A stretch of DNA of 64,000 bases from Dictyophora rubrovolvata (taxonomy: Eukaryota; Basidiomycota; Agaricomycetes; Phallales; Phallaceae). Shown piece after piece: positions 16,358 to 23,806 of this stretch. A program made the position numbers and the translations under genes. The notes below the pieces were generated by a model. It was not told the DNA's origin, did not search any database, and saw only the letters and a list, made by a program, of their open reading frames with translations. The stretch covers positions 1,426,001 through 1,490,000 of the forward strand of contig CP114124.1 of NCBI GenBank assembly GCA_029959195.1, given 5' to 3'. Within the stretch, counting starts at the first letter, position 1, and the number at the start of each line of letters is the position of its first letter.

Positions 16358-18394
16358 TTAAATCATTTCCTCCTCTTCTACCTCTTCCTCCATCGATTCT
16401 TTCAGCTAATTGAAAGACGTTCAGACGTCGAGAAATAGGTTCACTAGGCAGACATACCATTTCGACAAGCTCATGGCATTCACTCAAATGAGCGATGACA
16501 ACTCCCTGTCCTTCCGGGATTGATCCATCGCTTCCGATGAACTTTCCGTCTTTCTGCATAGAATCAATTTGATGCAAGGCTAGTTGATACTGTGCCTACC
16601 GTTAACGGATGCTGTCGGAATTTAAATAAATAAATATACTTACCGGATAAAGATCTCGCGGACTGAACGGTCCACCATACTTAAGAACCTCGTTAAGACA
16701 TTTCTTAACAGTCGACAATTTATTTGCCTAATAAAGTTTCTACAAAAAAAAACTTACATTTACTATATAAATGGACTCACAATCGGCATAAGCTCTTCCG
16801 AAACCGGTTCGCTTGACGATAATAACCGATAGATCAAACCGTAACATCGACGCAGAAGGTATAATAAAACCTATGTGAAAGGGGCATAAGTTAACTCAGA
16901 CGGGGGCTCAAAATGATATTCAGCCCACATATTGCCCTGCTGGTCGGTTGCCCTCTGAATCAACAAACTTGCCATCCACTCGCATCTTGTCAATTTCTCT
17001 CAAGCTCAAAGAATAGTTCCACAAATCCGTTTCTCTGCAGATAACACAGTGAGAAACCAGGTTCTTCAAAAGAAAGTCGCTGTGAAGAAGTATGCATACC
17101 TAAGAGACCATCGATGGGTTAGGACGAGGTTTTCAAGTTCAGCCCGTATTTCCATTAATCTATCATATATGGGTTTGAGTGATGAAGCGACATTTTTACT
17201 GACTTCCCGAGCACGTATTTCCTGGGATATTTCAAAGCACTCTTCAAGCAGCGATGACAGAAGTGCTTGAGACGTGGGCACGGATGATCCACCTGGCCCA
17301 AGGAATTTACCATCAACTCGTTTACTAGATCACGGAATTTAGCGGGTTTATATTAAAATTTAAACGGAACGCTATGACTGACGCTTCAATTTTTCGCAGT
17401 TCTTCTTGCAATGGTTTCAATTCAGCCTTCACGGAACCTTCTTTAGCAGCTAACGCGACAAGGTGCCGCCGTAAAGTAATTAATTTCTCGTGAAGCTATT
17501 GAGAGAGAGATTACATCAGTAACATTATATTTGAATATGACGAAAGAACCCCCTACTGGAATCAATTCGACAGAGAGTTCCGATAACGAATCCTGCATAG
17601 ACCTGAGGATAGAATCTGCGGCAAAGCTCAATGAAACACGAAACAGACTACATAGACTGGACTGCTGAGCAACGAACCGCATTCATTCAGCTGCCGATCC
17701 AAAAGTTTCGTCATCGCTTCCGGATGAAGGCCACTCTCGGCATCTCTTCGCACAATTTCGCGCAATTCCTCAATTCGCCGTTGAAATGTGACGACGTCGG
17801 TTTCGCTATACACAGCGGATTCATTCATGTGGTCTAACAGTTGCTAACCAACAAAAAGAAGGGGTCAGGGTGCAGACTACGAGAGAGCATATAAACGGGT
17901 TAAAGCTCACCCTGATGGTCGATATTTGACAGTATGTCGCAGGACACTCCCTCGTCTTCCCTATTGTTAGAAAAAATAATGATAATAAAGTAAATACGTC
18001 GGATAATGTAGTATCGACCCTATTTTTATGGGGCTGCTGTTCATCTCGGACGTCGTTGAGACGGGTTACTTGAGAAGTGAATGAGTAACTGATCCTCTTC
18101 GATTTCGCGTTGCACACCTTGTTTCACAACAGCATGATAGAGAGAAAGAACGTCCTGGGCTTTCACATAGTTTCCCCTATCCTTTTTTAGGGCAGTCAGG
18201 CGATTTCGGATGCTAGGCAGCGATGCCGGAGTTACCAATGAGTTGTCATTCTAAGAAAGTAAATTGAAGTTCTCCAATGGCTTACTTTATCACCGCTTCA
18301 AGGATTGGCAGTTCTATTAATTGGGGTTTTTTTTTCACCGTGTCAAACAACAGTCCAGGACATTGGAACACGCACCTTCTTGAGGAACAGACAT
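16358..18394 (-). CDS. UPF0662/DUF2408 family protein (yeast YPL260W/Cub1-like)
   Basis: About ten short exons encode a helical protein. The repeated motif MRVDGKFVDSEGNRPAGQ, also present as DGKFIGSDGSIPEGQGV and a related DGKFLGPGGS form, is what I associate with the fungal UPF0662/DUF2408 family. Other recognisable pieces are RNRLTALKKDRGNYVKAQDV (N-terminal), IEELREIVRRDAESGLHPEA and YDRLMEIRAELENLVLTHRW. The last intron (GTATGT...TTAG) leads to an acidic tail, LKESMEEEVEEEEMI, stop at 16358. The start is less certain: ATG at 18394 gives MSVPQE and needs two further introns to reach NDNSLVTPASLPSIRN. Yeast Cub1 has been linked to DNA repair and proteasome function; the biochemical role is unknown. 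Head-to-head with tropomyosin, 106 bp apart. Confidence 0.65.
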
Positions 18395-18500
18395 CGAGTC
18401 AGCGAGCACGGCAAGATAATTCACAATAGTCACACTAGTCACATTCACATTCCCCCCTTAACTCTTCAAGCTTCAATCGTTTGTCGCAATCAAATACCCA

Positions 18501-19137
18501 ATGGAAGCTATCAAGAAGGTGTGTCTAGATTTCGAGTATACAGTTCTTGCGATAATTTGTCTAGAAACTCGAACATCTTCGCACCGAAGCCGATGCTCAC
18601 TTTGAGCGAGCTGAAGAGGCCGAGAAGAAAGTTAAGAAATTGGAACAAGAACTTTTGACCAAAGAGCAAGAGAACATGGCCCTTCAGCGTGCCAATGTCA
18701 AACTTGAGACCGATTTGAAGCAAGTCGAAGAGAAACTCGAAGAGTCCAAGCGGTCTCAAGAAGATGGCGAACACACGAGATCGACCAACGACAGTCTCCA
18801 GAGAAAGGTCCAACTATTAGACGATGAGCTTGCTACCGCAGACAGAAATTTGAAAGATACCGTGGAGAAGTAAGTCAACTAGTTTATTCTACTGATGGTG
18901 TTTTGATCGAGCTTTCTACCAAGGCTCCGGGAAGTCGACGTTAAGGCAGACAATTATGCGCGTCAGGTTCAAAGGCTTGAACAAGAACGCGATGCCTGGG
19001 AGAAGAAATTCGAAGTGAGCATTGTTTTTACGCGTAATAGAATTTCTTGCATATGTCAATTTTAGGAAGCGGAGGATAAGTATAAGACAGCACAGAAAGA
19101 GTTGGATGAGCTCGCAACACAAATGGATAACCTTTAA
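18501..19137 (+). CDS. tropomyosin, 161-residue form
   Basis: Exons 18501-18518, 18565-18869, 18924-19014 and 19066-19137 encode 161 residues, the same length as fission-yeast Cdc8 and budding-yeast Tpm2. The whole protein is one continuous heptad coiled coil without proline: MEAIKKKLEHLRTEADAHFE at the start and KELDELATQMDNL at the end. The central part matches Cdc8 closely, for example QRKVQLLDDELATADRNLKD followed by the exon junction at TVEK/LREVD. Tropomyosin dimers polymerise head to tail along formin-nucleated actin filaments and are needed for cables, polarised growth and the contractile ring. The Met-Glu start is a NatB acetylation substrate, the modification known to aid head-to-tail binding. 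A shorter tandem copy follows 438 bp downstream on the same strand. Confidence 0.95.
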
Positions 19138-19575
19138 TTATTATAATAGTACGTCTAACTGCGTACGCCTCGTCTACACAAAGGAAGTAGTCGTTGATTC
19201 TCTATAGGTTCTTTTGATTTGTATCATATGTTATTAAATTACGCCCTATTTGCTCCATTGTTTCATAAAATGTGTCTGGACAATTCGGTCGATCACACCA
19301 TGTTCCGCGAGTGCTGTTATTTATGCTTTGAACTAATCACTTACTACTCCCGAAGATTGATGTCGCGACGATTGTCCACGGGAAGCAATGGCAACAAGCT
19401 TTGTGTCTGAAGTTCAGACTTCAAAACCTTTTTGCTGATATATTTGTCCAGATTGGTTTGGGTGTATTTGCAGGTGCGATAATTGAAGCGCCTGTCTGGT
19501 TATTACCACCTCGTCACTATCGGTCACATCCATCGACCCCTCATTTTGATCTCCACAACACACAACCAGTGCTCA
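19138..19575. other. spacer between the tandem tropomyosin genes
   Basis: These 438 bp hold the 3' untranslated region of the first tropomyosin and the promoter of the second. Open frames here are short and lack coding character. I see no repeat that would mark a recent duplication breakpoint. Confidence 0.5.
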
Positions 19576-20102
19576 ATGGACGCAATCAGAAAGGTGGATC
19601 GCTTCATCGCATGTATTGATCAGCCCGATGAACTCGTATCTAGAAACTTTCAAATCTTCGTGACGAGGCCGATGCGTACTTAACGCGTGCTGAAGAGGCC
19701 GAAAAGAAAGTGAAGAGACTAGAGCAGGAACTCTTAGTTAAAGAACAAGAAGTCACTTCTCTTACGACAAGATCTGGATCATTGGACACTGAACTTGAAA
19801 CAACTGAAAAGAAGCTGAAAACGACAGAAGAAGAGTGAGTTCCAATTAGGTCAATACACTACCAAATGTTTGAATTCTGTCTCAGGCTTCGTCGTGCTGA
19901 TTTGAGCGTGGAGACCCTCACTCGACAGGTTCAGCGGGTTGAAAAGGAGCGCGATGACTGGGAAAAGAAATATGAGGTGAGCAGAAATGCGTCGTTAACT
20001 CACGATCGTGGCTGATTATTCCTGTTTCAGGATTTGGAAACCAAGTACAAGAAAGCCAAGACAGACCTTGACGAACTTGTTGGTTCACTAGAGGGTCTTT
20101 AA
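19576..20102 (+). CDS. short tropomyosin paralogue, 123 residues
   Basis: Exons 19576-19593, 19644-19834, 19886-19976 and 20031-20102 encode 123 residues. The start MDAIRKKLSNLRDEADAYLT matches the neighbouring 161-residue gene at 32 of the first 42 residues, and the end TDLDELVGSLEGL is equivalent. Exons 1, 3 and 4 have exactly the same lengths (18, 91 and 72 nt) and the same phases as in the neighbour. Exon 2 is 191 nt instead of 305, so 114 nt or 38 codons are absent in frame. The heptad pattern, lack of proline and splice sites are intact, so this looks like a functional gene rather than a relic. The missing length equals one actin-binding period, so the dimer should span one actin fewer. 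The first donor, GTGGAT, is weak. Confidence 0.9.
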
Positions 20103-20347: not shown

Positions 20348-21200
20348 TCACTTGGACTCATTGCTTTCTTCATCCTTCTCTTCTTGGAAGTTTAATGAGA
20401 TAGAGTTCACGCAATGACGTTCATTAGCTAGAATGGATTAGTTCGATCTCATTTCAGGTAAGTTGGATATAATGCTTACTTGGAGTTGCAAAACCTTCGC
20501 CCTGGAGAGTACAGACGGTTTAGTAAGACGTGCACGACTGAGCAAACGGAAAGAGACAACATACTTTGAAAACGTGACCAAGATGGCCACCACAAGCGGT
20601 GCAAGTTATCTCTGTTCGAACCATGCCAAACATTGTGTCCTCATGACGAGAAACAGCACCGGGGATAGCTGTGAAGAATGATAAGTACCTCCGGTGTTGG
20701 GGGGTATTTATATGCAGGAATAATCACCATCGAAGAAGGCCGGCCAACCACAACCTGATTTAAACTTGGTTTTGCTTTTGTACACTGTCAAATAGACATT
20801 GATCAGAAAACAACAATCAGATGAAGATGGCCGTGTGACGACGAACACGGGGTATCGCACGCGGCGCAGGTATATACACCCTCCTCGTAGAATTTGTCAT
20901 ATTGTCCGGTTCCCGCAGCCTCCGTGCCTTTCTGGCGGAGGATTCTGAACTGCAAAGAGAGAAGCAGATGAGCCCGATTGGAGTACGATTATAAAAATAA
21001 AGAATGTGCACCTGCTCTCTCGAAAGGACGGCTTGCCATTCCGAGTCGGATTTAGCTTTTGAGTTTGGTTCGACCATGACTGATGAAGTTGTTGAAAGAA
21101 AGCGAGATTGATGCAGTGAAAGAAGGCGAGAGGTTGGCTTTATACTCGAGACTGAGATGGCTGTGAGGGCTGCGCGCAAACGTGAAATGTGATGATTCAT
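20348..21200 (-). CDS. peptide-methionine (R)-S-oxide reductase (MsrB)
   Basis: The spliced product contains every MsrB landmark: [115 protein letters not shown]. Two CxxC pairs (CAAC and CTAC) bind structural zinc and the RHC cysteine is the catalytic one. The enzyme reduces the R epimer of methionine sulfoxide using thioredoxin. About five exons are needed; one donor is CCGT/GTTCGT. From the ATG at 21200 the protein starts with a basic, acid-free presequence ([20 protein letters not shown] through SRFLSTTSS), typical of mitochondrial import. A second in-frame ATG at 21077 ([14 protein letters not shown]) would give a cytosolic form. It shares a 205-bp divergent promoter with dihydroxyacetone kinase. 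Confidence 0.92.
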
Positions 21201-21405: not shown

Positions 21406-23806
21406 ATGGTACTAAGTGAGTGCAAGGCTACCCGTGTTCCTATCGTTCCTTCCCAATACAGCTCTCAGACAAACATTTGATCAACGACTCGACAACTGTT
21501 GTTGTCGAAGCACTGCAAGGTAATGATGGTGCCATGGTTCCGAGTCCGGTTCCGGTGATGTTTATCAATTCTAGGCTTGGTATACCTGAACCCCCATCTT
21601 TCGCTGGATATCAAAAATAAAGGTATGTTCCGCAGCATCCGACTCATTTGGTAGCGATTTATTGTTGTTCGACAGTTGTATACCGATCCAAGACCAATAA
21701 GAATCAGGTTTCTCTTATTTGCGGTGGTGGAAGTGGCCACGAACCGAGCCATGCCGGATTTGTCGGTCAGTTGTTTTTTTTATTTCTGATCTGACATTTC
21801 TCCGTTTAATCAGTGGCATTACTAAACCTCCGATCTTTAGGTGAAGGGATTCTCACTGGTTAGTAAACGACTGAATTTTGCGCAGCAGCGCATTGACAGC
21901 CTCGTCACGATGATCTCAATTCGGACAGCCGCCGTCTGTGGGAATGTGTTTGCGTCTCCTAACGCCAGTCAAGTTACTAGGGCTATTGAACTCGTTGATG
22001 GCGATCAAGGGTATGTAATTAATGTAACATGGTTCCCATCTATCAATTTGATTTGGACATTCCGCAAAAACAGAACTTTGATAATCGTCAAGTAAGCATC
22101 AAGCAACGAAAACGCAACTGATCATTCCCGATTCCGTAAAAACCGATGATCATTTTTTTCTCTACAGAAACTACACCGGTGATATTCTCAACTTTGGATT
22201 GGCGAAAGAGGCTCACGCCGCCACCCATCCCGAAAAATCGAAAAAGGTCAAATTTTTGGTCGTCGGTGATGATGTCAGTGTTGGCAAAACCCAGGGTGGC
22301 ATGGTCGGTAGACGGTATGTACCTATGCCTATTCGGTGTTTATCCCCCTACATATTCATAACGTAGTGGTCTCGCCGGAACTGTTCTTGTCTACAAGATT
22401 GCCGGCGCCCTTTCCGCCAGGAATGCAGATATCGACCGCGTATACGATGTTGCGGCATGGACTGCTGAACGTCTCGGAACAGTCGGAATTGGTTTGGAGC
22501 ATTGTCATGTAAATACGGCTGAGTTTGAACTCGCATACTTTCGAGAGTCACCTAATTTGTTCTATAGATACCTGGTACTCTCCCGGCCCAATCTCACCTT
22601 TCGCCTGATGAAATTGAACTCGGAATGGGTATTCACAATGAGCCGGGTTATGCTCAAGTCTCCCCAGTTCCCAAATTGAAGGAGTTGATAAACGACCTCC
22701 TTACATTGGTTCTTTCGACCTCAGATACTGAACGATCCTTTCTTCCTTTCGGCTCTGGAAACGGACCGGATGAAGTGGTACTGATGGTGAACAATCTGGG
22801 AGGTGTGAGCAATCTAGAATTGAGTGTTATCACTCGTGAAGCTGTATCACAACTGGAGACGAAAGGCATTAAAATCAGGCGTGTGCTCGTTGGACCCTTC
22901 ATGGTAAATTTTTTTTTTTTTTCAGAATCCCCATTATGAATATAACATGCTCGATACCTTCTTGCCCAGACTTCCCTCAATATGCCCGGATTCTCGTTGA
23001 CGCTACTTTTACTCCCCCGACCTGGTGAAAAAGCCCCCGCCTTTACCGAAGAGTTATTATCTCTTTTAGATGACAAGACCGAAGCACCAGGCTGGTGTTG
23101 GTCTTCCGGTCTCGAGCCAGGTGCGATTAAAATGGCACCGGATGAGGAACCCGCTTCAATCATTTCCACAAGCACCGGGCGGAAGGTTGCAGCCGCTGAT
23201 CCCGTTGCCTTCGTCAACGCCATCAAACGAGCTGCTACAGCAATTATCGAGAACGAGCCGGAGCTGACCCGGTTGGACAGTATTACCGGTGATGGTGATG
23301 CCGGACTAACCCATAAATCTGGTGCTGAGCGTGTTTTGAGCGTAGCAAATTCTGGAGGTTTGGATGGGAAGGACGTTATTGGTTCTGTTGCGCAGATTGC
23401 CAAAGCTGCTAGTGATGCCATGGACGGGACAAGTGGTGCATTATACAGTATCTTTTTCTCTTCATTGGTGCAAAGCTTGCATCAGAGTACGGAAGGGAAG
23501 TCGGAGCTTACTCTTCAAATCTGGACAGAATCACTCTCGGAGGCATTGCAAAAACTTTATACGTATACTCGTGCTCGTCCACCGTCCCGTACGTTGGTTG
23601 ACCCAGTGGCAGCCTTCATTGAAGCTCTTCTGGGCGGAAGTTCTGTTTCAGACGCTGTCAATAAAGCTTCTGCTGCAGCTGATAACACGAAGAATTTGGA
23701 GGCTAGAGCAGGGCGTGCTGCATATGTCGGAAAGGACAAGGTCAAAGGCGTTCCCGACCCTGGAGCTATCGGTGTCAAGCTCGTTTTGCAGGCACTAATT
23801 GGTTGA
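21406..23806 (+). CDS. dihydroxyacetone (glycerone) kinase
   Basis: A 10-nt first exon (ATGGTACTAA) splices to give MVLNKHLINDSTTVVVEALQ. DhaK-type domain: VSLICGGGSGHEPSHAGFVG, EGILTAAVCGNVFASPNASQ, LIIVKNYTGDILNFGLAKEA and GDDVSVGKTQGGMVGRRGLA. GMGIHNEPG holds the histidine that forms the covalent hemiaminal with dihydroxyacetone. DhaL-type domain: LDSITGDGDAGLTHKSGAER with the Mg/ATP-binding aspartates, then SDAMDGTSGALYSIFFSSLV and GVPDPGAIGVKLVLQALIG. About nine exons give ~590 residues, full length for a single-chain ATP-dependent fungal Dak. The product, dihydroxyacetone phosphate, enters glycolysis, and the enzyme also detoxifies dihydroxyacetone. Two motif variants are noted: GDGDAG where GDGDCG is common, and MDGTSG where MGGTSG is common. 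Neither removes an aspartate ligand. Confidence 0.94.

Follow-up and report, generated by a model that had tools for sequence, protein, structure and literature searches.

What does a tropomyosin gene encode when it is shorter than its neighbour by about one actin period? This question is raised by two adjacent genes of Dictyophora rubrovolvata, here called A and B, which lie in a window of 64,000 nucleotides (the whole stretch of DNA that was analysed; contig CP114124.1, positions 1,426,001 to 1,490,000). According to an excerpt of PMC3805550, 38 residues correspond to one actin period, and tropomyosins of 161 and 199 residues span four and five actins, respectively. The product of A has 161 residues and that of B has 123. 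At issue is whether B is a working tropomyosin that spans three actins or a duplicate that has begun to decay.

Gene models

The sequence-only reading had described two intact tropomyosin genes on the same strand. This description was confirmed with regard to the exon coordinates, the exon lengths and phases, the product sizes of 161 and 123 aa, and the 438-bp gap between the genes (Table 1). Gene A spans positions 18501-19137 with introns of 46, 54, and 51 nt, and gene B spans positions 19576-20102 with introns of 50, 51, and 54 nt. The positions of the introns are homologous in the two gene models. The in-frame difference of 38 codons that had been placed in exon 2 was also found, as a net figure (305 versus 191 nt). 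An extra exon supplying these 38 codons in B is excluded, because the introns of B are too short to hold the 114 nt needed. Retention of intron 2 of B, which was checked as well, would bring an in-frame TGA directly after the junction-spanning codon.

The intergenic region presumably comprises the 3' end of A and the promoter of B. No RNA structure was found between the genes, the fold of positions 19139-19575 being no better than that of shuffled sequences (z -0.08). In the window, the Rfam scan at gathering thresholds and the tRNA search with the bacterial code both returned 0 matches.

Table 1. Coordinates of the exons of genes A and B and of the region between them (positions in the window).
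Feature	Position	Strand	Description
Gene A exon 1	18501..18518	+	18 nt, encodes MEAIKK
Gene A exon 2	18565..18869	+	305 nt; includes the stammer (around residue 71) and the residues missing in B
Gene A exon 3	18924..19014	+	91 nt
Gene A exon 4	19066..19137	+	72 nt including TAA stop; product 161 aa
A-B intergenic region	19138..19575	+	438 bp, from A stop to B start
Gene B exon 1	19576..19593	+	18 nt, encodes MDAIRK
Gene B exon 2	19644..19834	+	191 nt; 114 nt less than exon 2 of A
Gene B exon 3	19886..19976	+	91 nt
Gene B exon 4	20031..20102	+	72 nt including TAA stop; 123-aa product with unbroken heptads

Tropomyosin identity and length

Both proteins scored above the cut-off of the Pfam Tropomyosin family PF00261 (38.6 bits), A with 110.4 and B with 98.7 bits. 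The closest solved structure for both was Cdc8 of S. pombe (161 aa; PDB 8puz, 9ff9), with E-values of 5.3e-23 for A and 1.6e-17 for B, and animal tropomyosins came next among the solved structures with E-values of about 1e-5. Heptads run through the full length of both proteins, no proline is present in either of them, and the alignment shows that they resemble each other at both termini. By its sequence, B is a tropomyosin. It is outside the Cdc8-type length class, since two features of that class, a length of 161 residues with four periods and a central heptad stammer, are present in A and absent from B.

The genome consists of 28.2 Mb in 11 contigs. When it was searched with A, four matches were obtained at E ≤ 0.001, all of them in the two genes. 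The search with B returned nine matches at E ≤ 1, of which five were in the A and B genes and four were weak matches elsewhere (E-values 0.17, 0.28, 0.47, and 0.75). Neither query revealed a third tropomyosin locus in the 28.2 Mb. Relatives were sought with B alone as the query in viral contigs (43 pattern matches) and genome contigs (255), with no fungal collection among them, and none was confirmed. No natural tropomyosin of 123 residues or three actins was found in the open-licence literature, as judged by titles and abstract starts among the matches listed, and this silence is weak evidence of absence.

The sequence-only reading had proposed that a protein of 123 residues would span three actins, and the arithmetic of length agrees with it. 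If the path radius is taken as 38-40 Å and the rise per residue as 1.46-1.50 Å, 38.5-39.8 residues are needed per actin. Over nine combinations of these two values, a 123-aa protein on three actins would have ends that overlap by 3.7-7.5 residues, and a 161-aa protein on four actins ends that overlap by 2.0-7.0 residues. The length of B thus corresponds to a whole number of actin periods (three) and a short overlap. In the Fourier analysis, a signal near 19.6 residues reached p < 0.05 (uncorrected) in none of the four residue classes for A, and in one of four for both B and Cdc8. Self-similarity peaked at offsets of 42 for A and 35 for both B and Cdc8, with no peak at 38 in any of the three.

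Position and register of the loss

The two genes had been said to differ by exactly one step of 38 residues. The net difference of 38 stood, and that it was lost as a single block is uncertain. When a single 38-residue gap is imposed, 70 of the 123 aligned positions carry the same residue in A and B and the alignment scores 297 (345 - 48), while the free alignment with ordinary gap costs preferred two gaps of 29 and 9 residues, with 72 identities and a score of 302. The heptad register would favour one gap over this division, since the loss of 29 residues alone would shift the heptad phase. Placements of the gap that scored within 10 of the best were found after residues 41 to 69 against A, and after residues 45-58 or 61 against Cdc8. 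The missing stretch that suits both alignments ranges from 46-83 to 62-99 at the extremes. Overall, the loss of B falls somewhere within residues 42-107 of A, and the stammer of A is inside the missing stretch in every placement. As the third period of Cdc8 is given as residues 85-119 in an excerpt of PMC4542287, the missing unit would be mostly period 2, which is the most likely one, or would straddle periods 2 and 3.

The register was assessed with a purpose-written, rough heptad scorer at break penalties of 2, 3, 4, and 6. B showed a single unbroken register, from Met1 at position a through Leu123 at position d, which was intact at all four penalties. In A the phase skipped once, near residue 71; this skip was the single break at three of the four penalties, and two extra breaks appeared at penalty 2. 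Cdc8 had one skip (78) at the highest penalty and two (68 and 78), with the same total shift, at lower penalties. The skip in A and Cdc8 is equivalent to the deletion of four residues, that is, a stammer, and both proteins carry one net stammer. Muscle tropomyosin served as a control; its first 153 residues were unbroken at penalties 3, 4, and 6 and had two breaks at penalty 2. The heptad analysis therefore reverses the earlier claim that the 38-residue change adds a stutter, since it is A that already has a stammer and B that has none. Excerpts of two papers touch on this feature: fungal tropomyosins are stated to carry a stammer (PMC3805550), and the heptad interruption of fungal tropomyosin is contrasted with the vertebrate forms (PMC11626781).

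Deletion of 38 residues from A left no break at 74 of the 124 possible positions at penalty 4, at 72 positions at penalty 3, and at 108 at penalty 6. When the deletion length was varied from 30 to 46 at penalty 4, only lengths of 31 (67/131 positions) and 45 (81/117) left no break besides 38, and the other 14 lengths were never break-free. These three lengths restore the register of A because each equals 3 modulo 7, which is arithmetic and not separate evidence. In this range, 38 is the only register-restoring length near one actin period.

Sequence divergence of genes A and B

Comparison of A and B gave a pS of 0.77 (saturated) and a pN of 0.27, with matches at 8 of the 23 fourfold sites. In the Tajima test with Cdc8 as the outgroup (122 sites, four gap placements), 10-12 changes were unique to A and 10-13 to B (p 0.53-0.83), indicating that the rate of change of B is no higher than that of A. 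Bootstrapping of dN/dS resulted in an infinite dS in many replicates and is therefore not usable. The codon statistics did not distinguish among the six genes compared, namely A, B, and the four actin genes described below. Because the synonymous sites are saturated and the replacement sites are not, and because the rate of B does not exceed that of A, the sequences suggest that B is probably not decaying. Long drift of B would be unlike the observed pattern, whereas disuse that began very recently would still agree with it.

The surface of the proteins was compared at the 21 conserved Cdc8 sites named in an excerpt of PMC3805550, with the gap placed after residue 43. Twelve sites are identical in A and 11 in B, in which one site is deleted, and the charge class or the letter is kept at 17 of the 21 sites in A and at 14 in B. 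The sites identical in B are D16, E23, K30, Q41, E107, R110, E117, R121, D131, E138, and E153. B has Thr at 5 of the 21 sites, namely 82, 86, 93, 104, and 118, of which the first three depend on the position of the gap. Site 86 is printed both as E and as R in the excerpt of PMC3805550. It is R in Cdc8 and A; when it is read as R, the counts for A rise to 13 identical and 18 kept, and those for B are unchanged.

Actin, formin, and myosin genes of the same genome

Domain searches, carried out exon by exon so that the counts are lower bounds, found at least one locus for the formin FH2 domain (contig C1:915720-917189) and at least four for the myosin head (contig C6 at 482-484 kb and 1130-1133 kb, C1 at 2069-2071 kb, and C4 at 1168-1170 kb). 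The earlier idea that the two tropomyosins could be sorted by their affinity for formins is weakened by this result: with one FH2 locus found, sorting by different formins looks unlikely.

The actin search yielded 30 matches in the genome, and, unexpectedly, four actin genes could be modelled in frame along almost the entire protein, with 373, 372, 375, and 375 residues, no internal stop, and a stop codon next. The models follow an actin guide and their start codons are unplaced. Two of the genes form a tandem pair at C10:1360501-1364155 with models ending in KCF. The other two, at C5:2503547-2504836 and C5:2517223-2518524, point in opposite directions with about 12 kb between them, and their models end in KCL and KCM. 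The pairwise identity of the four actins is 75.5-94.4%. The gene at 1363 kb of C10 is close to known actins; at E ≤ 1e-110, no PDB match was obtained for its neighbour at 1361 kb, which shares 79% identity with it. Four further loci that were tested show 28-63% identity to the actin segments, a level expected of actin-related proteins. The motifs around D25, R28, R147, K326, and K328, which we take to be the tropomyosin contacts of actin, are kept in all four actins, the last two residues being R in the divergent one. According to an excerpt of PMC7536088, fungi possess a single actin or a very small number of them, and the number of actins is anticorrelated with the number of tropomyosins. 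Four actins, two tropomyosins, and one formin locus found are an odd set beside this anticorrelation. In fission yeast, the situation is reversed, with one tropomyosin, one actin, and two formins (excerpt of PMC3805550).

Probable origin and possible function of gene B

Our preferred and probable reading is that B is a functional Cdc8-type paralogue, which arose by an old tandem duplication and suffered a net loss of 38 residues of exon 2 including the stammer. The duplication would have given rise to both genes, A being the ordinary Cdc8-type fungal tropomyosin, and the segment lost from B would correspond to roughly one actin-binding period, most probably period 2, together with its stammer. 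As a consequence, B could form a regular homodimeric coiled coil, with the dimers joined head to tail along F-actin. A dimer of B would hold three actins instead of four, with weaker binding per dimer and faster exchange. Homodimers of A and of B are expected rather than A/B heterodimers, since an in-register heterodimer would need 38 residues to be looped out. Cables of A and B could thus produce filaments of unlike stability, with unlike access for myosin, cofilin, and fimbrin. Since a single formin locus was found, the two proteins might be sorted by the timing of expression, end-to-end compatibility, acetylation, or the actin making the filament. With regard to acetylation, both start with Met and an acidic residue, and are presumably substrates of NatB.

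Other explanations of the short gene have to be weighed against a functional paralogue. Improbable in our opinion is that B is a local decaying duplicate, in which a chance in-frame deletion left an unused frame that is open by chance. B does stray somewhat more than A from the conserved Cdc8 surface sites, and its first donor, GTGGAT, was seen in 0 of the 39 modelled actin-intron donors of the same genome. However, G at +5 is also missing in 7 of the 39, a number that is possibly too low as the intron model rewarded G at this position. Decay fits poorly with a gene whose frame is intact, whose six splice sites are retained, and in which 70 of the 123 residues are still those of A although the synonymous sites are saturated. 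It also fits poorly with a rate of change no higher than that of A and with a net loss whose length keeps both ends in one register. We also give little credence to the idea that B is a tropomyosin-like coiled coil without a cable of its own, which would cap or poison the cables of A or bind another partner. The resemblance of its ends to those of A might allow B to insert into A cables, and Thr occupies several of the conserved surface positions in B, but its length fits three actins, 11 of the 21 conserved sites are identical, and its score on PF00261 is 98.7 bits.

The reverse course of events is very improbable. In that case B would represent the ancestor, free of the stammer, and insertion of a stammer-bearing period would have produced the 161-residue fungal form. 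Like B, muscle tropomyosin has unbroken heptads over its first 153 residues, and the N-terminus of B, MDAIRKK, is near the animal MDAIKKK. On the other hand, the identity between A and B (70/123) exceeds that to Cdc8 (52-56/122 for A and 53-55/122 for B), the length and the stammer are common to A and Cdc8, and the 161-residue gene was present in all 27 fungal species surveyed, as stated in an excerpt of PMC3805550. Going beyond a functional paralogue that lost one period, B might represent a distinct and conserved class of three-actin, stammer-free tropomyosins, the shortest natural ones, paired with the divergent actin or actins. Filament identity would then be set by the combination of actin type and tropomyosin type and not by formins, a possibility that we regard as unlikely. 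If it were true, the fungal tropomyosins would form a length ladder of 123, 161, and 199 residues with 0, 1, and 2 stammers, where the two stammers of Tpm1 are predicted from 38 being equal to 3 modulo 7.

Comparison with known tropomyosins

Cdc8 is the best solved relative of both proteins. A is as long as Cdc8 and has its stammer close to the position of the one in Cdc8, whereas B lacks 38 residues and the stammer and shares 53-55 of 122 sites with Cdc8. Vertebrate muscle tropomyosin, with 284 aa and seven actin periods, is like B in the unbroken heptads of its first 153 residues and in a similar first heptad; the best E-value for B is 2.3e-5.

Among known systems, Tpm1 and Tpm2 of budding yeast come closest to A and B, and they too are separated by a one-period step. 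This parallel, drawn already by the sequence-only reading, is supported by excerpts of the literature: Tpm1 of S. cerevisiae has 199 aa and Tpm2 161 aa (PMC3805550; PMC9592052), and the difference is a 38-residue insertion of one actin period (PMC3805550). Like A and B, they are two tropomyosins of one fungus that are 38 residues apart. They span five and four actins, with the insertion after codon 35, in contrast to four and, as predicted, three actins by loss for A and B, which, unlike Tpm1 and Tpm2, are neighbouring genes. Fungal forms of 161 and 199 residues are described in the length-filtered survey of 29 sequences from 27 species in the excerpt of PMC3805550.

Two tropomyosins that are one period and one stammer apart and have similar ends come close to a ready-made natural experiment. 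The pair bears on the whole-number actin periods of tropomyosins and on the role of the fungal stammer. If B coats filaments, three actins would suffice for a natural cable and the stammer would be dispensable.

Neighbouring genes

By eye, positions 17000-18400 (-) of the window contain a divergently oriented multi-exon gene of coiled-coil character. Its possible start codon at 18394 is about 106 bp from the start of gene A, and the two genes may share a promoter. Two pieces of this candidate gene gave no Pfam match. Ten stretches of the window, comprising seven of the 15 long ORFs and three short ones, were compared with Pfam, and one matched KAR9 (a fungal protein) above the cut-off and one Zw10 below it, which agrees with a fungal origin of the DNA. 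Downstream of the pair, matches to SelR (methionine sulfoxide reductase) and Dak2 (dihydroxyacetone kinase) were observed at positions 20520-20723 (-) and 22946-23803 (+), respectively.
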